Positions 14,604 to 26,015 of a stretch of DNA of 40,061 bases are shown one piece after another. The translations under genes and the position numbers were made by a program. The stretch is from Thermomicrobiales bacterium (lineage in GTDB: Bacteria > Chloroflexota > Chloroflexia > Thermomicrobiales > UBA6265), in contig JAGQGU010000049.1 of NCBI GenBank assembly GCA_020432165.1, positions 1 through 40,061 of the forward strand. The letters run 5' to 3'. The notes beneath the pieces are model-generated. The model saw nothing but the letters and a program-made list of their open reading frames with translations. It was not told where the DNA came from and searched no databases. How positions within the stretch are numbered: the stretch's first letter is position 1; each line of letters begins with the position of its first letter.

Positions 14604-15401
14604 TCAGTCAGTCTGGAGCCAGTTTATGATCTCCTGATACATCGGTAATCCATGCGGGGAAGCCGGATCACGATCGAAATCGTGATCGGTGGCATCGTAC
14701 ACGCGGTAGAAGGAGCTCTGCGGAATAACAGTCGCCAGATGTTTGGAGCAACGGAAGGGCACGTCTGGATCATAGGCCGATGCCGCCAGAAAAGTTGGCG
14801 GTAGGCGGCGGAGTACATCGTCCGGAATTGGTGTGGTGGTGGCATCGAGAACAGTTTCTGGCCAGGTACCGCGCTGTCTCAATCCGACATAGAGACTGAA
14901 TCGTGTGGTGAAGTCATCGGCATCCGGTTGGTCTGGGAGTGGGTCGACATACCCGAACGCTTGATACCATGAACTCGGCCGATGAAAATCCTTGTCCTGC
15001 ATATCGGTATAGCCATAGAGCGAGATCAGACGATCGGCGAGGTGTTCGCCTCGCATTATCGCTCGTGCCTGGAGATTCAGCGCCAGGTATGCCCCCGCTG
15101 ACCGGCCGAAGAGAATCAATCTGTCTCCGCGCAGGCCGCCATTGTCATGGAGTGAGCTGATCGTCTCTTCCAGCGCGCCCAGAATCGCTTCGGTTCGGCA
15201 TCGAGGTGCGAACGGATAGTCGAGCGCGACGATGGTGAACCCGGCATCGTTGAAGGCAGCGATGTAGGGATCGGGAAGGTCGTTTCGCGAGCCGAAGATC
15301 AGGCCACCACCATGGATATAGATCACTGTTCCACGGAGACTTGAAGTAGTCGGGAAGATGCTGATCCGCTCAGTGTATGGCTGCATCGACGGTGACGGCA
15401 C
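14604..15401 (-). CDS. Alpha/beta-hydrolase (HSL-type esterase)
   Basis: A 265-aa cytoplasmic hydrolase of the hormone-sensitive-lipase branch. The oxyanion motif is IYIHGGG near residue 30, the nucleophile elbow is FGRSAG (GxSxG) near 100, the acid is probably in ASAYDPDVPF and the histidine in ATDHDFD near 242, so the triad looks complete. The GTG at 15401 has GGAGG about 9 nt upstream and overlaps the end of the PucR gene by 32 nt; an ATG at 15386 is an alternative with no good ribosome-binding site. Overlap with the regulator of the adjacent ureide operon suggests it might act on a related ester or amide, but the substrate is unknown. Confidence 0.85.
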   Translation of the reverse strand: MPSPSMQPYTERISIFPTTSSLRGTVIYIHGGGLIFGSRNDLPDPYIAAFNDAGFTIVALDYPFAPRCRTEAILGALEETISSLHDNGGLRGDRLILFGRSAGAYLALNLQARAIMRGEHLADRLISLYGYTDMQDKDFHRPSSWYQAFGYVDPLPDQPDADDFTTRFSLYVGLRQRGTWPETVLDATTTPIPDDVLRRLPPTFLAASAYDPDVPFRCSKHLATVIPQSSFYRVYDATDHDFDRDPASPHGLPMYQEIINWLQTD

Positions 15402-17016
15402 CGGCTGTTCCCTCCAGGAATGTAAGGATTTCGAACGCCATCAGGAGCACGGATTGAGTTTGAGGATCGTGCAGATCCATCTGCAGAAGCTGACCGATGC
15501 GGTTAATGCGATATTGAACCGTTTTGGCGTGAACATGGAGTTCTCTGGCAGCTGCGGTGTGGCTGTAGTTATGTCGGAGATAAAGGCGGAGGGTATCGTA
15601 GGCATCGCGATCGTCCCGATACAGGGCCGAGAGTTCCTGGGGCACGAAAGCCACCAGATCGGAACTATCCGCCAGCACGAATAGCTTCAGCGCGCCCAGA
15701 GAATCGAAGCTGCCAATGTGAGACCATTTGCCATTCTGGCGAAAGAAGCGGGCTGTTGTTCGTGATTGCATCTCCTGCTGAGGCAGTTGATCGGCGAGTC
15801 CGACATCGCTCAGGCCCCCCACAAACTGCACCTGATCTCCCAGGAATTCCTGTTCCAGCATGCGGTCGATGCGGTTGGCCAAATTCCCTGGCATATTCGT
15901 GCTGTAGTTCAAATCGTTGCCATGCAGAATGAGCTGAACCCGATTTGGTGACAGATAAAAGAGCGAGTTGGGAAACAACCCTCGCAGGTACCGGGTGAGC
16001 AGACGAAAAATATTGGATGTGCGCAGGCTCGGTTCCAATGTTGAGAGGGATGGGAAAATGGTGAGAACCTGCGTCGGCGTATCTGCGGAGAGACCGGCTG
16101 CGCGCAGAGCTTCATCGCGGTACGAACGCTGGGCGATCATGCCGGAAAGCAGATCTCCGATGAGCGCGTTGCGATTCATTTGCTGCTGCTGACGGGAGGA
16201 GTGTTGGCGCAGAATCAATGTTTGCAACGAACGGATCAGATTCTCGATGATCACAATATCGCTGGATTCCACCTGATGATCGCGGATCTCATGGACGATC
16301 AACGTATGCTGTCGGTCATCGATACAACTGATATCGACGGATAGTACGGAATCGTTGAACGACGTGGTTTGGTCGTAATTGCAGGTGAAGCGGCGATAGG
16401 TGAAGTTCATATACTCGCTTCGGCGTATCGGTAGTGGTTGCCCCAGCTGAAGGCGCGATGCTATCTCCGGCGTCGTGGATGAGATGCGTTCGGTGGGCAT
16501 TTCCATAAGCGTGCAGTCCAGCGAAAGAAACTCCTGGAAGGTCGTCAGAATCTCGTCCAGACTGGCCAGGCTTAGGGATAGTTGGGAACTGATATTGCTC
16601 AGGCGATAGTGAAGCGCCAACTGCGCTTCGGTTTGTTCGATAACCGGTCGGAAAACATCCAGCAGAATGTCCTGGTAACTCGAGTTCATGCCGATCTCAA
16701 TGAGCGTGATCTGGCGATTCTCGCACTCATTGACGATATTTTCCGGGATGTGGTCGATCAGGCGTTGCACCTTAATCACAAGTGCCGAGATGCCGATCTC
16801 CTCCACCAATCGCAGAAATGCACCGAGATCGTCCGACTTAAGCCCTCGTAGCGCGAAGTAGCTGGAGAGCAACACCATCCCGTGTCGCCCCCATAAGTCA
16901 ATATCCAGCGCTTCCAACACATTGATGCCGGTGATGGGTGCGTAAAATTCCCTACCCTGCACCAGAACCCGAGGGGATTTCATGCTTTGGCATTGGAGCA
17001 ACTCAGCAACGTTCAT
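15370..17016 (-). CDS. pucR: PucR-type regulator, divergent from the carbamoyltransferase operon
   Basis: A 548-aa activator-type protein. Residues 1-125 match the PucR sensory domain (MNVAELLQCQSM, VLEALDIDLWGRHGMVLLS, LVIKVQRLIDHIPENIV, CENRQITLIEI). The middle is a degenerate GGDEF-like region. The C-terminus is HTH_30: TLRLYLRHNYSHTAAAREL, HVHAKTVQYRINRIGQLL, then DLHDPQTQSVLLM. B. subtilis PucR controls purine and allantoin catabolism, and this gene diverges across 177 bp from the FdrA-type operon, so it is the likely local regulator. The ATG at 17016 follows GAGGGGAAGAA. The gene name is by family, not by proven orthology. Confidence 0.87.
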   Translation of the reverse strand: MNVAELLQCQSMKSPRVLVQGREFYAPITGINVLEALDIDLWGRHGMVLLSSYFALRGLKSDDLGAFLRLVEEIGISALVIKVQRLIDHIPENIVNECENRQITLIEIGMNSSYQDILLDVFRPVIEQTEAQLALHYRLSNISSQLSLSLASLDEILTTFQEFLSLDCTLMEMPTERISSTTPEIASRLQLGQPLPIRRSEYMNFTYRRFTCNYDQTTSFNDSVLSVDISCIDDRQHTLIVHEIRDHQVESSDIVIIENLIRSLQTLILRQHSSRQQQQMNRNALIGDLLSGMIAQRSYRDEALRAAGLSADTPTQVLTIFPSLSTLEPSLRTSNIFRLLTRYLRGLFPNSLFYLSPNRVQLILHGNDLNYSTNMPGNLANRIDRMLEQEFLGDQVQFVGGLSDVGLADQLPQQEMQSRTTARFFRQNGKWSHIGSFDSLGALKLFVLADSSDLVAFVPQELSALYRDDRDAYDTLRLYLRHNYSHTAAARELHVHAKTVQYRINRIGQLLQMDLHDPQTQSVLLMAFEILTFLEGTAGAVTVDAAIH

Positions 17017-17193
17017 TTCTTCCCCTCAATAATTGCCACGCCAGGATAAAACATACCACTGCAATTGGGTCGCTGGGATAACGACTCCTGGCACGCTCCT
17101 CACCATACTACAGGTAAATGGGCGACAAGGAGATGGTGTGCTGCTGGTTTGCTCATGCGGTTTGCGGGTTCGTTGGAGGAGAGTGAGGAACGT
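17017..17193. promoter_or_regulatory. Divergent promoter region of PucR and the carbamoyltransferase operon
   Basis: This 177-bp region must hold both promoters. A 7-bp inverted repeat GCCAGGA (17040-17046) / TCCTGGC (17086-17092) spans 39 bp and could be a regulator site. A 22-codon open frame (17118-17186, beginning MGDKEMVCCWF) ends 7 nt before the first operon gene and overlaps its ribosome-binding region. It may be a leader peptide or chance. Confidence 0.45.
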
Positions 17194-20190
17194 ATGCTCA
17201 AGACGGTTATCAGACAGAACAGCTATCAGGATTCCATTAACCTGATGCTGCTAACCAATGCTCTGAATGCGCTGGATGTTGTCAATCGCGCATCGGTCAT
17301 GATGGGCACCGAGGCTAACAAAGATATCTTCAAAAGCACCGGTTTCTATACCGACGAAGTCGGAACCGCTGCACCTGCCGATATGGTGATTGTGCTTGAT
17401 GTTGAGGGTGACGATGCCCAGGCATCTGCCCTCGCCACTGTCGATAGCTTCCTGGCCGATCTTTCCTCCCGCCGCAAAAAGGGAGGCACGGTTGATGTAA
17501 CCAGTCTGGCCGCTGCGATCGAGGAACTTCCGGATGCGAATCTGGCCCTCTTCTCGATTCCGGGTGAATACGCTGCTCCGGAAATGCGCAAGGCTCTCGA
17601 AGCCGGCCTGAGCGTCTTCTCGTTTACCGATAATGTCTCGATTGAGGATGAGATCGAGCTCAAGCGCTATGCCCACGAGCATGGCCTGCTCATGATGGGA
17701 CCGGACTGTGGTACCGGCATCATCAGTGGGATTCCGTTGGCATTCACCAATGTGGTGAGGCCGGGAAATATCGGTGTTGTTGGTGCCTCGGGCACGGGTA
17801 TTCAGGAAGTTACCTGCATTATCGATGACCAGGGCGAAGGCGTTATCCACGCTATCGGTACCGGTGGTCGCGATCTCAGTTCCGATGTTGATGCCATCAC
17901 GGTCAAGGATGCCTTGATCGCGTTGGAGCATCACGATCCGACCGATGTTATCGTCCTTATCTCCAAGCCCCCGGCGCCAGCCGTTCGTGACGAGGTTGTG
18001 AATCTTCTCCACAATCTGAGCAAGCCCGTTGTCGCGATCTTCCTTGGTGAGAAGCCGGACCATCACGAGCAGAACGTCTATCTTGCCCACACACTGGAAG
18101 AAGCTGCCCTGATTGCGGTCGATCTTGCCAATGATCGCGAGGTTCAGCCGGTCTATATGCCCGCTTTGGACAATGAACTCGACGCCCGGATTGGTGAGAG
18201 CGGTACGGTGAAGGGGCTCTACTCCGGCGGCACATTGGCCAACGAAGCCGGCATGCTGATTTCCGAGGCACTCGATCTTGGTGGTGTTATTCACCACGAT
18301 GGGTATGTGCTGGATGCCAACGGCTATCAGGTAATGGATCTGGGTGACGATATGTACACCCAGGGTCGTCCTCACCCGATGATTGATCCGGAAATCCGCA
18401 TCAACATGCTGAAGGATCTCGCTGCGGATGAGACCACGCAGATCATTCTGTTGGACTGCGTGCTCGGTTACGGTGCGCATCCGGATATGGCTGGTCAACT
18501 TGCCCCGGCGATCCGTAGCGGTCTTGAATCCGCCAAAGCCGCGGGCAAGGATCTCTACATCATTGCTTCCGTGGTCGGTACCCGTCAGGATCCGCAGAAC
18601 TACGATGCTGCCGTGCGCACGCTGCGTGAGGCTGGTGCCTATGTGGAGGCCACCAATGCTCGCGCGATTCGCCTCGCGCTGAAGCTGAAGGGTGTCGATC
18701 TGGTCGAGGCCCCGAAGCAGGTTATCGAGCGTGAGGTGGAGAAGATTGATCTCCCCGCCCCGAGCGACAACGTTATGGATCTACTCACGACCAAGCCACG
18801 CGTGGTCAATATCGGTCTGGAAAGCTTCAACGAGTCCATCACCACATTTGGTGGTGCCAGTGTTCAGTACGCATGGAAGCCTGCCGCGGGAGGCAACAAG
18901 GAGCTTATTCGGCTCCTGAACGCCTTCTCCGGACGTGATGATATCGCCGCTGCCAATCAGGTCGTGGTCGATCGTATGCGCGAATCGCAACCGTTCCTGG
19001 TCGATGTGGTGCCGGCCAAGTCTGTCATTGAGATTCTGAACACGCGTACTCTGCTGCATGCTGGACCGCCCATCACCTATCCCGAGATGACGGGACCGAT
19101 GCAGGGATCCTGTGTCGGCGCGATCCTCTTCGAGGAATGGGCGAGCGACGAGGCCGAGGCCCGACGCATGCTGGAAGCCGGTGAGATTCAGTTCTGCCCC
19201 TGCCATCACGTGAATGCGGTTGGCCCAATGGGTGGTATCACCTCCGGCAACATGCCCGTTGTGGTGGTGATCAACAGAGCCGATGACAGCGTTGGTTACT
19301 GCATCATGAATGAGGGTATCGGCAAGGTCCTTCGCTTTGGTGCATATAGCGATGAGGTGGTGAATCGACTTCGCTGGATGCGCGATGTCCTCGGGCCGGT
19401 TCTGTCACAAGCGCTGCAGCAGACCGAGAACGGCATCAACCTCAATGTTCTCATCTCTCGCGCGCTCACCATGGGTGACGAATTCCACCAGCGCAACATC
19501 GCCGGGACACTCAATCTCTTCAAGGAGCTGATGCCGCTGATCGTGAAGCTTGATATCGATCAGGCGGATAAGGAGCGGGTTGTCCAGTTCCTGGCCGATA
19601 CGGATCAGTTCTTCCTGAACGTGATGATGGCTACCGGCAAGTCGATTGTCGAGTATGCCCGTAAGTATCAGGAAGGCACCGTGGTTACCACCATGACCCG
19701 CAATGGCAAGGATTTTGGTATCCGCATTGCCGGTATGGGCGACGAATGGTTCACGGCTCCGGTCAATACGCCAAACGGTCTCTACTTCAGTGGCTATTCG
19801 GAAGAGGATGCCAACCCCGATATCGGCGATAGCGCGATCACAGAAACGATCGGTGTCGGAGCCATGATCGATGTCGCCGCTCCGGCTGTCACCCGCTTCG
19901 TTGGTTCCGGTGGCGGCTACGATGATGCGCTGGCCGTCTCTGAGGAGATGGACACTATCACGATTTCCAACAATGCCAACTGGAGCGTGCCGAACTGGAA
20001 CTTCAAGGGGACACCTCTGGGAATCGATATCACCCGGGTGGTTGAGACCGGTATCACACCGCTCATCAATACCGGTATCGCACATCGCGAGGCAGGTGTT
20101 GGTCAGGTTGGAGCTGGCACCGTGCGGGCCCCGCTGGCTTGCTTCGAGAAGGCCCTGGTGGCCTACGCCAGGAAGCTCGGGTTGAGCTAA
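17194..20190 (+). CDS. fdrA: FdrA-DUF1116 fusion: probable oxamate-type carbamoyltransferase large subunits
   Basis: About 998 aa, joining two proteins that are separate in E. coli (FdrA/AllF and YlbE/AllG). Residues 1-535 are FdrA-like, with a succinyl-CoA-ligase-alpha-type fold: GPDCGTGIISG near 169, VVGASGTGIQEV near 194, then IGTGGRDL. The DUF1116 part starts near 537 (VVNIGLESFNESI), with ANQVVVDRM, LLHAGPPITYPEMTGPMQG near 620, HHVNAVGPMGGITSG near 668, NEGIGKVLRFGA and MGDEFHQRN near 759. FdrA, YlbE and YlbF together form oxamate carbamoyltransferase, which transfers the carbamoyl group of oxalurate to phosphate. The ATG at 17194 follows GAGGAACGT; the frame opens earlier without a good start. 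The next gene overlaps as TAATG. Confidence 0.9.
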   Translation: MLKTVIRQNSYQDSINLMLLTNALNALDVVNRASVMMGTEANKDIFKSTGFYTDEVGTAAPADMVIVLDVEGDDAQASALATVDSFLADLSSRRKKGGTVDVTSLAAAIEELPDANLALFSIPGEYAAPEMRKALEAGLSVFSFTDNVSIEDEIELKRYAHEHGLLMMGPDCGTGIISGIPLAFTNVVRPGNIGVVGASGTGIQEVTCIIDDQGEGVIHAIGTGGRDLSSDVDAITVKDALIALEHHDPTDVIVLISKPPAPAVRDEVVNLLHNLSKPVVAIFLGEKPDHHEQNVYLAHTLEEAALIAVDLANDREVQPVYMPALDNELDARIGESGTVKGLYSGGTLANEAGMLISEALDLGGVIHHDGYVLDANGYQVMDLGDDMYTQGRPHPMIDPEIRINMLKDLAADETTQIILLDCVLGYGAHPDMAGQLAPAIRSGLESAKAAGKDLYIIASVVGTRQDPQNYDAAVRTLREAGAYVEATNARAIRLALKLKGVDLVEAPKQVIEREVEKIDLPAPSDNVMDLLTTKPRVVNIGLESFNESITTFGGASVQYAWKPAAGGNKELIRLLNAFSGRDDIAAANQVVVDRMRESQPFLVDVVPAKSVIEILNTRTLLHAGPPITYPEMTGPMQGSCVGAILFEEWASDEAEARRMLEAGEIQFCPCHHVNAVGPMGGITSGNMPVVVVINRADDSVGYCIMNEGIGKVLRFGAYSDEVVNRLRWMRDVLGPVLSQALQQTENGINLNVLISRALTMGDEFHQRNIAGTLNLFKELMPLIVKLDIDQADKERVVQFLADTDQFFLNVMMATGKSIVEYARKYQEGTVVTTMTRNGKDFGIRIAGMGDEWFTAPVNTPNGLYFSGYSEEDANPDIGDSAITETIGVGAMIDVAAPAVTRFVGSGGGYDDALAVSEEMDTITISNNANWSVPNWNFKGTPLGIDITRVVETGITPLINTGIAHREAGVGQVGAGTVRAPLACFEKALVAYARKLGLS

Positions 20191-21047
20191 TGCATGGCGA
20201 ACCCTGGCAGGGATGGATGACCGCATCCCTGCATGACCACCTCGGAGTCCGTGCCACGGGCCATGTTCACAGCATCTTTCGACAGAGTTTCAACATCGAT
20301 GTCGATGGTCTGCTGCTGAATGTTGGTCAGCATCGCCAGCGTCTTTCACCGCTGGGCATGGCACTCGATCCCACAGAGTTTGGACCACTGTGGGAAACCG
20401 TCGCCATTGGCGATTTGGTGAGGTGGTCAGCCAGGAAGCTCGCTATCTATCCCTCCCGGGGAACACCGGTGGTGATTCCCTGGGAGCGGACGGCCACGGT
20501 GGATCACGCCGTCCCGTACGGAGCCATGAATCCTGAGATTCTGGCTGGATTTGCCGAGTCGATCCAGGCATTGTCTCTCGACACGAAGATCGGGCTGACC
20601 TGGGACGCCGATTTGCAGCGGGTCGTTGGGCAACTCCGGCGCGCTGATGCCGATGAGAGCGAGCGGCAATCTGCATTCCGCTGGCTTTTGGGGAGAGGGA
20701 AGGGGTTGACGCCTTCGGGCGATGACATCGTGGCGGGCTATGCATTCCTGTTGTGGATGTTTGGCATTGCCGTCATTGATGCCCGTTTGCGAGATGAAGC
20801 GCGGCAGCGAACGACCGCTACGAGTGCGACGTTGCTGCATATGTTGAGTTTTGGGGAAACCGGTCAGGCCCTGTTCGATGTGTGGCGAGCCGCGAACGAG
20901 GGTAGTCTGCAGAACCTCGATCACAGCCTGAAGCGTGTGTTGGAGATCGGACACACCTCGGGGGCAGACACAGTATTTGGTATCGGCCTGGGAGTCGAGC
21001 GGCTATTGGGTGCGGGGAATCGCCCAAAAGCTGGAGGAGGAGAGTAA
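20190..21047 (+). CDS. allH: DUF2877 protein, probable third carbamoyltransferase subunit (YlbF/AllH-like)
   Basis: A 285-aa protein with the DUF2877 signature GRGKGLTPSGDDIVAGY near residue 175. FSFRQSFN-like and LLLNVGQHRQRLSPLGM sequences precede it, and GADTVFGIGLGVERLL ends it. In E. coli the DUF2877 protein YlbF is needed with FdrA and YlbE for oxamate carbamoyltransferase activity. The ATG at 20190 shares one base with the upstream TAA (TAATG), which points to translational coupling and a fixed ratio to the fusion protein. The stop is 4 nt before the symporter ATG. It is acidic/neutral and cytosolic, without membrane segments. Confidence 0.88.
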   Translation: MHGEPWQGWMTASLHDHLGVRATGHVHSIFRQSFNIDVDGLLLNVGQHRQRLSPLGMALDPTEFGPLWETVAIGDLVRWSARKLAIYPSRGTPVVIPWERTATVDHAVPYGAMNPEILAGFAESIQALSLDTKIGLTWDADLQRVVGQLRRADADESERQSAFRWLLGRGKGLTPSGDDIVAGYAFLLWMFGIAVIDARLRDEARQRTTATSATLLHMLSFGETGQALFDVWRAANEGSLQNLDHSLKRVLEIGHTSGADTVFGIGLGVERLLGAGNRPKAGGGE

Positions 21048-21051
21048 AGAT

Positions 21052-22314
21052 ATGTTGCAAAAACAATCGCGAAAGCTCCCTATTGGCATGACCTCGCTGA
21101 TTATGATCGGCATGATTGCTGGCATGATCTTCGGCGTTGTTGCAGACCAAAGTTTTGAGGCGCTCGTTGTTATCGGGCAAATCTTTCTCCGCCTCATCCA
21201 GATGTCCATCATCTTGCTGGTGATGGGACAGATCATTGAGGCAGTTGGTGGAATCAAGCCAGCAGAGAGCGGCAAGATCGGTCTCAAAACGGTGACGGTT
21301 TTCCTGGTCTCGACGATGTTGGCGGCCGCTTTTGGATTATTGATCACCACCATCATTCAGCCAGGTGGCTCCATCAATCTTGAACGGATTGATCAGTCAA
21401 CCGAAGGGATCTCAGAGCAAAACCTGAAAATCGGCGATACGGTTCTCAGTTTCTTCCCGGTCAATGTCATTGGTTCGATGGCGAACGGTGTCATTGTGCA
21501 GGTTATTCTGTTCGCCATCCTTTTCGGGCTATCACTCAGCCTAGTCATTCAGGATAACGATGGCGAAGGCACCAACCTGCTCAGTCTGATCTCTTCGTTC
21601 AATAAAACCATCATGACGCTGGTGCGCCTGGTGATGAAACTGGCACCTATTGGTGTGTTTGCGCTGGTGGCCAGTTCCATTGGCGAGTATGGGATCGAGA
21701 TGATCCTGCCTCTGGCCAAGTATCTGGGAACGTTTGCCTTCGCCACGGCGCTCTTCCTTGGTATCTGGATTGTGGTTGTCTGTCTCTATGCGCGCGTGCC
21801 ACTTTTCGGACTGCTATATGGCGTGAGTCGAATGTCGACCGTGGCTCTGGCAACCACATCCTCTGCGGTGACCTTGCCGACGGAGATGGAGGATGCCGAG
21901 ACCCGGCTGGGGATCAGCAAGGAAATCAGCAGAATCGTATTGCCGTTGGGTGTGAGCCTGAACAGCAATGGTGCGGCCATGCACATGGCGATCACCATTC
22001 TCACCATCGCCCAGCTTTACGGTGTGACCTACGGGTTCAACGATTACCTCTACATCGTTGTGCTCGCCACCTTCGCATCACTCGCCAATGCCGTTGTCCC
22101 GGGTGCAGGCCTGGTATCGCTCTCGATCGTTGTCCCGCAAATGGGACTCCCTCTGGAATCCATTGCCATCTTTGCGGGTGTCGAGTGGTTTGTCGGCATG
22201 ATTCGCACGATCGCCAACGTGGATACGGATACCTTCTCTGCCATTCTCGTGGCCAAGAGTGAAGGCAAGTTGGATACCAGCGTGTACCAGCTAGCGAGGG
22301 CAGAAACCGCGTAG
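21052..22314 (+). CDS. Dicarboxylate/amino acid:cation symporter (DAACS/GltP-DctA family)
   Basis: A 420-aa transporter with about eight helices and two re-entrant loops. The family serine-rich loop is TTSSAVTLPTEMEDAE. The usual NMDGT motif reads NSNGAAMHMAI, and the last cation/substrate motif is IRTIANVDTDTF, keeping Arg, Asn and Asp. The altered NMDGT and TLP loop suggest a substrate other than glutamate or C4 dicarboxylates, perhaps oxalurate, oxamate or a related anion from the pathway around it. The ATG at 21052 follows GGAGGAGGAG and lies 4 nt after the DUF2877 stop. The direction of transport is not known. Confidence 0.88.
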   Translation: MLQKQSRKLPIGMTSLIMIGMIAGMIFGVVADQSFEALVVIGQIFLRLIQMSIILLVMGQIIEAVGGIKPAESGKIGLKTVTVFLVSTMLAAAFGLLITTIIQPGGSINLERIDQSTEGISEQNLKIGDTVLSFFPVNVIGSMANGVIVQVILFAILFGLSLSLVIQDNDGEGTNLLSLISSFNKTIMTLVRLVMKLAPIGVFALVASSIGEYGIEMILPLAKYLGTFAFATALFLGIWIVVVCLYARVPLFGLLYGVSRMSTVALATTSSAVTLPTEMEDAETRLGISKEISRIVLPLGVSLNSNGAAMHMAITILTIAQLYGVTYGFNDYLYIVVLATFASLANAVVPGAGLVSLSIVVPQMGLPLESIAIFAGVEWFVGMIRTIANVDTDTFSAILVAKSEGKLDTSVYQLARAETA

Positions 22315-22350
22315 AAATCAACGCTTTAGCGGTACACGCCATTGTCAGGA

Positions 22351-22369
22351 GTGGATGATTTCCATCCAC
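22351..22369 (+). promoter_or_regulatory. Hairpin upstream of the carbamate kinase gene
   Basis: GTGGATG (22351-22357) and CATCCAC (22363-22369) pair with a 5-nt loop, followed by CCCCGG and the AAGGAG ribosome-binding site. It may be a processing or attenuation structure inside the operon. Confidence 0.4.
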
Positions 22370-22387
22370 CCCCGGAAGGAGTTTGTC

Positions 22388-23344
22388 ATGCAATCATCTC
22401 GTATCGTCGTTGCTTTGGGTGGAAATGCATTGGGTACCACCCCGGCCACCCAGAAAGAATCGGTGAAGGCCATCGCCAATGCGACCGTTGCGTTGCTTCA
22501 GCAGGGGCACGAAGTCGTCATCGGACATGGGAACGGTCCACAGGTGGGGGCGATTAACCTCGCGTTCGATCTCGGCCACAAGGCGGTGGGCGGCATTCCC
22601 GCCATGCCATTTGCCGAATGCAATGCCATGAGCCAGGGATACATTGGGTATCACCTGCAGCAGGTCATGCAGAATGCGATCCATAAGGCAGGGTTTGATC
22701 GCTACGTGACATCTGTCATTACCCAGGTCGAGGTCGATCCGGACGATCCGGCCTTCTCCAACCCCACCAAGCCGATTGGATTGTTCTACACCCGGGAGGA
22801 AGCAAGAGCTATCGCCGCGGATCAGGGCTGGACCTTCGTTGAAGACTCTGGTCGGGGATACCGGCGTGTGGTTCCGAGCCCGCAACCGCAGAACATCGTG
22901 GAACTCGCGACCGTACGTACCTTGCTGGAGAACCGCGCTGTGGTTATCACGGTGGGTGGCGGCGGCATTCCTGTGATCGATGAGGATGGTGCGCTTACGG
23001 GCATTGATGCCGTCATCGATAAGGATGCCTCCTGCGCCAAGATCGCCAGCCAGCTCGACGCCGATGTGCTGTTGATTCTGACGGCGGTCGACAACGTCTA
23101 TATCAACTTTGGTACGCCAGAACAGCAGAAGTTGGAACATATCACCCCGGAAGAGGCGCAGTCCTATCTGGAGCAGGGGCAGTTTGGCGATGGCAGCATG
23201 AAGCCGAAGGTCGAAGCCTGCCTGCGCTTCCTGCAGGAATCACCAAACGGTCGCGCCATGATCACTTCTCTGGAGAATGTCGCCAACGCATTTACCAACG
23301 GGAGCGCGACCGTCATCTCGGCGCATGCCCCTGTTATGGCCTGA
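22388..23344 (+). CDS. arcC: Carbamate kinase
   Basis: A 318-aa enzyme that makes ATP, NH3 and CO2 from carbamoyl phosphate and ADP. The family hallmarks are all present: VVALGGNALG at the N-terminus, VIGHGNGPQVGAI near 45, VVITVGGGGIPV near 195, AVIDKDASCAKIASQL near 217, LLILTAVDNVYINF near 235 and FGDGSMKPKVEA near 275. The ATG at 22388 has GGAG 7 nt upstream; an ATG at 22355 in the hairpin is not used. No arginine deiminase or ornithine carbamoyltransferase is nearby; its carbamoyl phosphate is expected to come from the FdrA-type transferase. This matches the E. coli allantoin cluster, where a carbamate kinase (YbcF/AllK) sits beside the same genes. Confidence 0.95.
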   Translation: MQSSRIVVALGGNALGTTPATQKESVKAIANATVALLQQGHEVVIGHGNGPQVGAINLAFDLGHKAVGGIPAMPFAECNAMSQGYIGYHLQQVMQNAIHKAGFDRYVTSVITQVEVDPDDPAFSNPTKPIGLFYTREEARAIAADQGWTFVEDSGRGYRRVVPSPQPQNIVELATVRTLLENRAVVITVGGGGIPVIDEDGALTGIDAVIDKDASCAKIASQLDADVLLILTAVDNVYINFGTPEQQKLEHITPEEAQSYLEQGQFGDGSMKPKVEACLRFLQESPNGRAMITSLENVANAFTNGSATVISAHAPVMA

Positions 23345-23511
23345 GCCACCGCTGTGGGAGATCTGGGCTAACCGGAACTGGAGACCCACGGAGGTTTGGG
23401 AACGAGTTTGTGCATATGGCAGTTCGTTGGTTCCAGGCCGAACCAACATCACAGGAATTCGTGTATGGAGCCCGTTGAGGGCATTGCCAGGGGACTGGCG
23501 GAGGTAAAGAG
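23345..23511 (+). promoter_or_regulatory. Structured leader upstream of the second permease gene
   Basis: This 167-nt gap contains several nested stems. CTGTGGG (23352-23358) pairs with CCCACGG (23385-23391). GTTGGTTC (23426-23433) pairs with GAACCAAC (23440-23447) around CAGGCC. A GCCAG/CTGGC stem lies just before the GGAGG ribosome-binding site. I do not recognise a known riboswitch class. It may be a cis-regulatory RNA or an internal promoter region. Confidence 0.45.
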
Positions 23512-24765
23512 ATGGACGGTTTTCTGAGTCTTGTTCCACTTATCGTGGTACTTGTGTTGTTATTCCGGCGCGTGCATATGATTCCGGCAGCGTTGGTCGG
23601 CGCCATTTTGGCGATGATTATCGGTGGCATTAGTCTTACTACCGCGAATGCCACGCTCATGGAAACCATGCCGAAGATTCTGGGCATGGTGGTACCGGTT
23701 ATCAACTCGGCAGTGGCATTTGCCGTCTTCAATGCCGGCGGCTATACCTCCGCACTGAAGCTGATGAATCGGGGTGTGGGTGGTCGTAGCGAACTATTGG
23801 CGGTCTCCATTGTGCTCCTCCAGAGCCTCGCTACCTACATGTCTGGTATCGGTGGTGGTACCGCGGTCGTGCTGGCTCCGCTGGCATTTGCCGCCTGCGG
23901 TGCTATTCCGGAATTGATCGCGGGTATGTCGATTGCGGCAGCCGTCGCGTTCACCACCTCGCCGGCGTCCCTTGAGTCCAGCGTTTTCTCGGAAATCAGC
24001 GGTGTGGCCATTGGTGATTATGTGAACCAAATGCGTCCCTATTGGCTGCTCTTTACCGTCATTGCTATGGTTATTGCCTACCTGGGTGCAAAGAAGCGCG
24101 GCAGCCTCTTCACGAGCGATGCCCCCTCTGATGTGACCGATCCGACGGAAGATACTGCCCAGTTGGTAAAAACCACCATTCCGGCTGCGTTCCTGCTCTT
24201 CTCCGTGCTTGTTGGTCCCAAGATCAACGAAGCGCTCGATATGCCTCTCTTTGGTCCGCTGGTCTACAGCCTCGGCACCATCCTCCTCATTTGGGTCTGC
24301 ACCTCGGAGAATCTGAACAAGACGTTCGAATCGTTGGTGGATGGTTCCAGTTACATCCTCACCCGCCTCTTTGGTGTGGGGTACTTCCTTTCCTTTATCT
24401 ACATCATCGAAAAGATCGGTGCCTTTGACACCATCTCCAGCATGGCCGAGGTTGCGCCTCATTGGTTGATGATTCCTGCAGGTGTCCTGGCCGGATTCCT
24501 GATCGGTGTTCCAGCCGGTGCATACGTGGGCACCATCCTGGCACTGATTCTTCCGGTCGTCATGAATCTTGGTTTCTCGCCTCTGGCCATGGGCTTTGTC
24601 ACTATGGGTGTCGGCCTTGGTAGCCAGATGAGCTTCGTGAATATCACCATGCAGGCGCTGAGCTCCGGCTTCCAGATTCCGATCGAGAAGGTGGTTCGCG
24701 GCAATACACCATACATCGTTGGTTGCGTTACCCTGCTGCTGGGTATCTCCCTGGTCATGGCCTAA
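23512..24765 (+). CDS. Multi-pass membrane permease of the operon
   Basis: A 417-aa hydrophobic protein with about 11-12 helices, starting MDGFLSLVPLIVVLVLLF. Notable loops are YMSGIGGGTAVVLAPLAFAA near 105, AFTTSPASLESSVFSEISG near 145, and GVPAGAYVGTILALILPV near 330. The repeated re-entrant-loop-like segments (GIGGGTA, TSPAS, GVPAGAYVG) recall the ion transporter superfamily that includes CitM, GntP and DcuC, but I cannot place it in one family. The ATG at 23512 has GGAGG 5 nt upstream. Between carbamate kinase and the amidohydrolase, it probably imports the pathway substrate or exports its end product. Confidence 0.8.
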   Translation: MDGFLSLVPLIVVLVLLFRRVHMIPAALVGAILAMIIGGISLTTANATLMETMPKILGMVVPVINSAVAFAVFNAGGYTSALKLMNRGVGGRSELLAVSIVLLQSLATYMSGIGGGTAVVLAPLAFAACGAIPELIAGMSIAAAVAFTTSPASLESSVFSEISGVAIGDYVNQMRPYWLLFTVIAMVIAYLGAKKRGSLFTSDAPSDVTDPTEDTAQLVKTTIPAAFLLFSVLVGPKINEALDMPLFGPLVYSLGTILLIWVCTSENLNKTFESLVDGSSYILTRLFGVGYFLSFIYIIEKIGAFDTISSMAEVAPHWLMIPAGVLAGFLIGVPAGAYVGTILALILPVVMNLGFSPLAMGFVTMGVGLGSQMSFVNITMQALSSGFQIPIEKVVRGNTPYIVGCVTLLLGISLVMA

Positions 24766-24788
24766 CGAACCAATAGAGGAGCATTATC

Positions 24789-26015
24789 ATGGGAACACTC
24801 TTCAAAAACGTACGCTTGCAGGATGACACAGATCTGGTCGATATCCGGATTGATGGTGAGACTATCGCAGAGATTGCCAGTGGTATTGATTCGACCGGTC
24901 ACGATGTGATCGAGGGTGATGGCCGGGTCGTACTACCGGGGCTGGTGGAAGCTCATATCCATTTGGATAAGGCATTGGTGGCGGATCGCTGCCTGAATCG
25001 TAGTGGCACCGTGAAGGAAGCCATCGCGGTGACGGCTGAGCTCAAGCCAACGTTTACCAGCGAGGATGTGCGCGAGCGTGCCGAGAAGACCCTGCGCATG
25101 GAGATTCTGAACGGTGTGACGCACATGCGTACCCAATCGGAGTTCGATCCGGCGGGCGGATTCACTGGCTTCCACGATATCATGGCGCTCAAGGAGCGTT
25201 ACAAGAACTACATTGATATGCAGGTGGTTGCCTTCCCCCAGGAGGGTATCCACAAGGCTCCCGGCACCGAACAGATGATGTACGAGGCCATGGATATGGG
25301 AGCTGATATCGTTGGTGGTGTTCCGTACAACGATTTCTCCGCCAACGATCATATCGATACCGTCTTCGAGATCGCCAAGAAATACGACAAGCCGATCGAC
25401 TTCCATCAGGACTTTATGGACAATGCCGAAGGCACCTCCATTCAGTACGTGATCGACAAGACGATTGCTGAAGGATTCCAGGGCCGCGTAGCGGTGGGGC
25501 ACCTCACCAGTTTGGGTGCGTTCGAGCCGGAAGCATTGAAGCCGATAGCCGAAGGTATGGCCCAAGCCGGGATCAGCGTCTTCAGCTTGCCTGCTACCGA
25601 TCTCCATCTCGGCGGGCGCGGCGATACCCACAATGTTCGCCGGGCGCTCACGCCAATCCGCTTCCTGCGCTCACACGGTGTCAACGTCAGCCTTGCCTCC
25701 AACAACATTCGGAACGCCTTCACGCCGTATGGCAATGGTGACCTCTTCCAGATCGCACTGTTGGGTATCGCGGGTGGGCACCTTGGTGGCGCCGATGATT
25801 TGCCGCATGTGATTGATATGATCACCACCTGTCCCGCCGATGCGCTGGGATATGGTGATGCCTACGGTGTGGAAGTTGGTAAGCCGGCCGACCTGATCAT
25901 GGTGGATTCACGCAAACGAGCAGACGCCATTATCGATCTCGCGACCAAGTTGATCGTGATGAAGCGCGGCAAGGTGCTGGTGCGGACTACCAAAGAGACT
26001 GAGTGGTTCATCTAG
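24789..26015 (+). CDS. CodA/AtzC-like amidohydrolase with altered active site
   Basis: A 408-aa metal-dependent hydrolase of the cytosine deaminase/isopropylammelide hydrolase type. It has H56 and H58 in HIHLDK, MQVVAFPQEGI, H206 in FHQDFMDN, H238 in GHLTSLGA and PATDLHLGGRGD. At the position of the metal-binding Asp (D313 in CodA, D303 in AtzC, aligned from memory) it has Asn305 in SNNIRNAFTPYGNGD. At CodA Glu217 it has Phe209. It therefore is not a standard cytosine deaminase. As last gene of the carbamoyltransferase operon (24 nt after the permease, GGAG ribosome-binding site), it may open a cyclic ureide or deaminate or hydrolyse the imported substrate. Confidence 0.88.
   Translation: MGTLFKNVRLQDDTDLVDIRIDGETIAEIASGIDSTGHDVIEGDGRVVLPGLVEAHIHLDKALVADRCLNRSGTVKEAIAVTAELKPTFTSEDVRERAEKTLRMEILNGVTHMRTQSEFDPAGGFTGFHDIMALKERYKNYIDMQVVAFPQEGIHKAPGTEQMMYEAMDMGADIVGGVPYNDFSANDHIDTVFEIAKKYDKPIDFHQDFMDNAEGTSIQYVIDKTIAEGFQGRVAVGHLTSLGAFEPEALKPIAEGMAQAGISVFSLPATDLHLGGRGDTHNVRRALTPIRFLRSHGVNVSLASNNIRNAFTPYGNGDLFQIALLGIAGGHLGGADDLPHVIDMITTCPADALGYGDAYGVEVGKPADLIMVDSRKRADAIIDLATKLIVMKRGKVLVRTTKETEWFI

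Follow-up and report, generated by a model that had tools for sequence, protein, structure and literature searches.

A carbamoyltransferase and carbamate kinase operon in a Thermomicrobiales genome and its possible role in oxalurate fermentation

It was not until 2024 that genes were assigned to oxamic transcarbamylase, and then solely in the context of allantoin breakdown. What, then, does this enzyme do at a locus that carries no allantoin genes? The question is raised by a stretch of 40,061 nucleotides from a Thermomicrobiales bacterium (GCA_020432165.1, contig JAGQGU010000049.1; hereafter the window), in which all three transferase subunits, AllF, AllG and AllH, are encoded together with a carbamate kinase, two transporters and an amidohydrolase-superfamily protein. 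On balance we favour the view that the locus is a PucR-controlled ureide fermentation operon, based on oxalurate, which arises when purines are broken down, and extended by a permease-amidohydrolase add-on.

The transferase locus and its substrate

AllF (FdrA) and AllG (DUF1116), subunits 1 and 2 of the carbamoyltransferase, are fused in the window. The fusion lies in an open reading frame of 1041 codons (17065-20190, plus strand) and likely starts at the ATG at 17194. Its AllF part matched the FdrA model NF004760 with 672.8 bits over residues 44-620, and its AllG part matched PF06545 with 315 bits over residues 708-923; solved relatives are 3dmy (FdrA) and 3clq (AllG family). The ATG of AllH (DUF2877, subunit 3; 20190-21047, plus strand; PF11392, 4.1e-20) overlaps the stop codon of the fusion by 1 nt (TAATG), and the protein retains 18 of 18 family-conserved columns. 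Four bp further on lies the gene for a DAACS (SDF) symporter of sodium:dicarboxylate type (21052-22314, plus strand; PF00375, 1.1e-97), which would import a carboxylate. It is followed, after 73 bp (ATG 22388) or 40 bp (alternative ATG 22355), by the gene for a carbamate kinase of the AllK/ArcC type (22388-23344, plus strand), which scored 379 bits against the threshold of 358 for the catabolic-type model TIGR00746. The widest gap, 167 bp, separates the kinase from the permease (23512-24765, plus strand), which lies 23 bp ahead of the gene for a CodA-like protein (24789-26015, plus strand); the other gaps range from the 1-nt overlap to 73 bp. A gene for a PucR-family transcription regulator (15370-17016, minus strand; PF07905, 4e-16; PF13556, 3.9e-19) diverges from the operon. 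A sequence-only reading of this DNA had listed these genes, and each was found where it had been placed. That reading had also called for a search for the same gene order in Chloroflexota, which recovered the order DAACS, carbamate kinase, permease, amidohydrolase in a second metagenome-assembled genome (MAG) of this phylum, UBA6265 (L262; last two genes 83-88% identical). Since this order repeats, it is not a matter of chance. Another UBA6265 contig (L032) carries the alpha/beta hydrolase, PucR, fused AllFG, AllH and DAACS genes.

In E. coli, oxamic transcarbamylase requires AllF, AllG and AllH together, and converts oxalurate and phosphate to oxamate and carbamoyl phosphate (PMC11326118). 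Like the window, the E. coli allFGHK operon combines three transferase subunits with a carbamate kinase (PMC11326118, PMC9843812). The window differs from it in the fusion of AllF with AllG, in PucR replacing AllS/AllR control, in the lack of allantoin genes in the operon and of AllB, AllD and AllE over cut-off in the genome, and in the addition of the DAACS symporter, the unnamed permease, the CodA-like protein and an alpha/beta hydrolase. An earlier proposal that the locus encodes an AllFGH-type transferase feeding a carbamate kinase for ATP is supported by the predicted presence of every subunit and of the kinase.

The claim that allantoin genes are missing was borne out across the whole genome, a draft of 105 contigs that is 98.3% complete. 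There, the best AllD and AllB matches remained below threshold (188 bits against 496, and 168 against 358, respectively), and neither AllE nor urate oxidase gave a match. One gene of the M20 hydantoinase/carbamoylase family, on another contig, scored 410 bits against a cut-off of 204 with TIGR01879, which is a subfamily model and not AllC's own. We then compared related loci. When genomes were scanned with the fused protein, 202 related stretches emerged, the best 80 of which were examined; the counts across loci and genomes reported here come from related genomes and should not be read as independent events. In Anaerolineaceae, Olsenella, Vagococcus and Companilactobacillus genomes with a minimal PucR-AllFG-AllH-DAACS module, none of AllB, AllD and AllE was over cut-off. 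AllD, AllE and AllB are all present in Jeotgalibaca and an Alkalibacterium MAG (L106), and AllD, AllE and an M20 AllC-type enzyme in Propionivibrio and a Bacillota MAG (L053). Because relatives of both kinds occur, the module appears to be a cassette that can work with upstream allantoin genes or without them; in the latter case, the cell probably takes up the N-carbamoyl acid.

Which acid this is can be approached through the family's usual context. Among 53 loci outside the window's clade, AllD was found in 44, AllE in 46 and AllC in 41, and AllB-like genes also adjoin AllFGH genes in sister groups. The window fusion keeps 307 of the 314 columns that are invariant in 40 allantoin-context fusions, with seven mostly mild departures; when the allantoin-context fusions were left out in turn, each departed at 3-17 invariant columns. 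Since only seven of 314 columns differ, the window enzyme would still be an oxalurate enzyme. Moreover, Enterococcus faecalis IDRL-9065 (NZ_CP143580, 302129-315851) carries the same set, namely amidohydrolase, permease, DAACS, carbamate kinase, AllH, fused AllFG, divergent PucR and alpha/beta hydrolase, with the amidohydrolase, permease and fusion 55-64% identical to those of the window; its cluster differs in gene order and in also holding an MFS transporter and AllD, the oxalurate-making enzyme. Taken together, phylogeny and residue conservation make oxalurate the best-supported, and a likely, substrate of the window AllFG and AllH.

We propose the following pathway. DAACS, the unnamed permease or both would import oxalurate or exchange it for product. 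Oxalurate, whether imported or made in the cell, would be phosphorolysed by AllH and the AllF-AllG fusion, giving oxamate and carbamoyl phosphate; from the latter, carbamate kinase would yield ATP, NH3 and CO2. Oxamate would be exported by one of the carboxylate carriers. The permease-amidohydrolase pair would add a further input, with the amidohydrolase opening a cyclic ureide to oxalurate and the permease moving the associated carboxylate. Here the transferase would serve as an independent, transferable module for fermentation in anaerobes that lack the allantoin pathway, and would link the streptococcal "oxalurate pathway" of the 1960s to 1980s to genes. The E. faecalis cluster is probably the kind of genes behind the "oxalurate catabolic pathway" of S. 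faecalis named in the title of a 1986 paper (Vander Wauven et al.).

The CodA-like protein and its permease partner

The closest solved relatives of the CodA-like protein are cytosine deaminases and AtzC, as its earlier description as a CodA/AtzC-like amidohydrolase implied; that description missed a change at the active site. In cytosine deaminase, Glu217 is the general acid/base and Asp313 the beta-8 metal ligand and base. Compared with CodA (1K6W) and AtzC (2QT3), which belong to the same sequence family, the window protein keeps the HxH motif, the third metal His and His246 (His61, His63, His214 and His246 correspond to H56, H58, H206 and H238), whereas Glu217 is replaced by F209, Asn281 by D271 and the pair Asp313/Asp314 by N305/N306. 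The changes Glu217 to Phe, Asp313 to Asn and Asn281 to Asp are common to 12 of 12 members of a subclade (support 91/94) that takes in Rhizobium, Johnsonella and other Chloroflexota proteins; CodA-like relatives beyond the subclade retain the Glu and the Asp. Accordingly, the protein is no normal cytosine deaminase, and the Phe and Asn found throughout the subclade rule out an ordinary AtzC as well. It also fell below every listed NCBIfam cut-off. A second altered lineage was seen in another Chloroflexota genome (G019; L213 5832-7148), where a CodA-like protein with Asp313 changed to Gly and Glu217 to Leu stands beside unfused AllF and AllG.

Do these changes mean that the protein is no hydrolase at all? 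It could instead be a binding or regulatory protein, or catalyse a metal-dependent isomerisation or lyase reaction. The uniform loss of Glu217 and Asp313 fits this idea, as do the possibly compensating change of Asn281 to Asp and the retained His ligands. However, the rest of the pocket is strongly conserved (H56, H58, K61, Q151, H206, H238), which, with the operon linkage to a permease, suggests an enzyme acting on a small molecule; we regard a non-hydrolytic role as rather unlikely, if the strongest of the alternatives.

As a function for the amidohydrolase, ring opening of a cyclic ureide is still the guess that we put first. In Johnsonella, a subclade member of 40% identity adjoins an NCS1 nucleobase/hydantoin-type permease, and another member adjoins a gene of the hydantoin-racemase superfamily, neighbours that make a ring substrate fitting; the Rhizobium member lies in a cluster with an 8-oxoguanine deaminase. 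Among possible rings, parabanic acid (oxalylurea) is the prime candidate, because its opening gives oxalurate directly and because parabanic acid induced oxamate transcarbamylase in a streptococcus, according to the title of a 1965 paper (Tigier & Grisolia) that PMC11326118 cites. The conversion of parabanate to oxalurate is nevertheless proposed tentatively. A bolder version is slightly less secure again: the protein may found a new subgroup of the amidohydrolase superfamily with a rewired metal site, in which Asn stands in for the beta-8 Asp and an additional Asp lies close to beta-7. It would convert parabanic acid, or a related cyclic ureide, into oxalurate by ring opening; joined to AllFGHK and the unnamed permease, it would complete a self-contained, mobile route by which the rings of oxidised purines yield ATP without passing through allantoin.

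The permease occurs in six of 26 AllFG-bearing genomes (the window's own, UBA6265, Jeotgalibaca, Alkalibacterium, Coriobacteriales OH1046 and Enterococcus moraviensis). In all six, the next gene in the same direction is the amidohydrolase (at least 57% identical), and the E. faecalis cluster described above is a seventh case of the pair. The two genes are judged to form a separate module. The permease itself had no match in Pfam, NCBIfam or PDB sequences. Its AF2 model is of low confidence (pLDDT 56), and the best Foldseek hits to it were uniformly DASS, TRAP-M or AbgT-type chains (24 of 24, TM about 0.5). These hits, and the context of its homologues, make the permease a putative carboxylate transporter of the IT-superfamily type. 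Kinship with LctP was rejected, hhalign having found nothing. LctP-family permeases are themselves seen in Lachnospiraceae allantoin/AllFG clusters (L062 14019-15626 and about 37 other loci), where they may export oxamate, as this compound resembles lactate and pyruvate. The permease and the amidohydrolase with its replaced catalytic residues present an uncharacterised carrier and enzyme, for which parabanate, 5-hydroxyhydantoin, oxalurate and oxamate are the few candidate substrates.

Weighing other substrates and reactions

Several points weigh against the oxalurate pathway as proposed. AllH identity between relatives is only about 22-46%, and some relatives with the minimal module have no carbamate kinase inside the stretch examined. 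To judge from the residues of the amidohydrolase, which has neither the general-base Asp nor the Glu of cytosine deaminase, hydrolysis by the normal mechanism is doubtful. The 1965 and 1986 papers contribute their titles only. Finally, the wider AllFGH family may use other N-carbamoyl acids, as its homologues co-occur with ring-opening amidohydrolases of the barbiturase/cyanurate-hydrolase family and with cysteine hydrolases.

This last point is the basis of an alternative for the window, in which the transferase acts on ureidomalonate, N-carbamoylaspartate or a biuret/allophanate derivative, which the amidohydrolase would produce from barbiturate, dihydroorotate-like or triazine-derived rings. 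Enterobacter and Aminobacter plasmids do combine AllFGHK with a ring-opening amidohydrolase and a nucleobase symporter, each with a homologue of the window permease; DAACS transporters prefer dicarboxylates; and AllD is absent here. Set against this, the plasmid AllG proteins are far from the window AllG in the tree, the window fusion has lost very few of the residues that are invariant in the allantoin context, and in E. faecalis the same set occurs alongside AllD. We consider another acid unlikely for the window enzyme. An even weaker proposal, quite improbable in our view, places the amidohydrolase downstream, converting oxamate, otherwise a dead end (PMC9843812), to oxalate and NH3 while the permease exports oxalate or oxamate: the predicted permease topology resembles IT-superfamily carboxylate carriers and the pair is optional, as expected of a salvage step, but CodA and AtzC relatives act on heterocycles, and subclade members away from AllFG (Johnsonella by the NCS1 permease, Rhizobium with the 8-oxoguanine deaminase) fit a cyclic heterocycle better than oxamate.

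The clusters of Aminobacter pSR8 and of Enterobacter/Citrobacter plasmids share with the window AllF, AllG, AllH, carbamate kinase and a distant permease homologue (35-38%); they differ in having unfused AllF and AllG of a distant clade and an AtzD/barbiturase-family ring opener in place of the CodA-like protein. Aminobacter and enterobacterial plasmids with AllF-AllG-AllH-carbamate kinase and such a ring opener (L203 10067-16438, L208 3159-12084, L268) suggest that the transferase family has a part in the use of other ring ureides as well. An E. coli ColV plasmid (L209 6366-14544) and Peptoclostridium (L207 5145-13904) combine the same four genes with a cysteine hydrolase and nucleobase-type permeases.

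Ancestry of the fusion and the flanking genes

The fusion had been put forward as the distinguishing feature of the locus, a view that did not hold. Fused proteins of about 980-1190 aa were found in 72 loci, mainly in Bacillota and Coriobacteria. Most of the 80 examined stretches encode a single open reading frame of about 1000 aa, and the fused form is the rule in fused-type Lachnospiraceae, Coriobacteria and others. With 72 loci encoding it, the fusion is neither special nor novel, nor is it an assembly artefact.

In a tree of 151 AllG domains, the window copy groups with UBA6265 and other Anaerolineaceae (8 rows, support 98) within a wider clade of 30 rows (support 97) that holds Coriobacteria, Jeotgalibaca, Alkalibacterium, Vagococcus, E. 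faecalis, Propionivibrio and Clostridia. The sister groups, Lachnospiraceae with the fused form, Enterococcus/Lactobacillus with the split form and Photobacterium, carry AllC, AllD and AllE. AllG proteins of other Chloroflexota, including those of the same order, are distant in the tree and almost always unfused, and the permease was found in 0 of 300 other sampled Chloroflexota genomes. Vertical inheritance within Chloroflexota was rejected on these grounds. Since the fusion groups with Bacillota and Coriobacteria and the permease is missing from the sampled Chloroflexota, horizontal gain from Bacillota-like anaerobes would be the simplest reading and is the one that we favour.

Of the 27 loci in the window's clade, 26 have PucR close to the fusion and 21 have DAACS next to the fusion. 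Between pucR and the fusion, eight relatives (L033, L034, L035, L036, L037, L107, L048, L053) share the motif GCTA(NN)ATGACGG, of which about 0.013 occurrences with at most one mismatch are expected per region; it is a possible PucR operator in these relatives. The motif is absent upstream of the operon in the window and in UBA6265, and was not used for the window.

The sequence-only reading had drawn the operon from 15370 to 26015. The genes within these bounds were correct, and an alpha/beta hydrolase gene (Abhydrolase_3; 14604-15401, minus strand; PF07859, 2.9e-15) had been overlooked. Because this gene overlaps the 3' end of pucR and recurs in 59 loci, the operon reaches past the start given there. 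In those 59 loci the family stands beside PucR/AllFG, fused or unfused, in allantoin and non-allantoin clusters alike. The window protein has the Ser-Asp-His residues (GRSAG, D211, H240), and its nearest solved structures are 2qru and 3h04, both uncharacterized.

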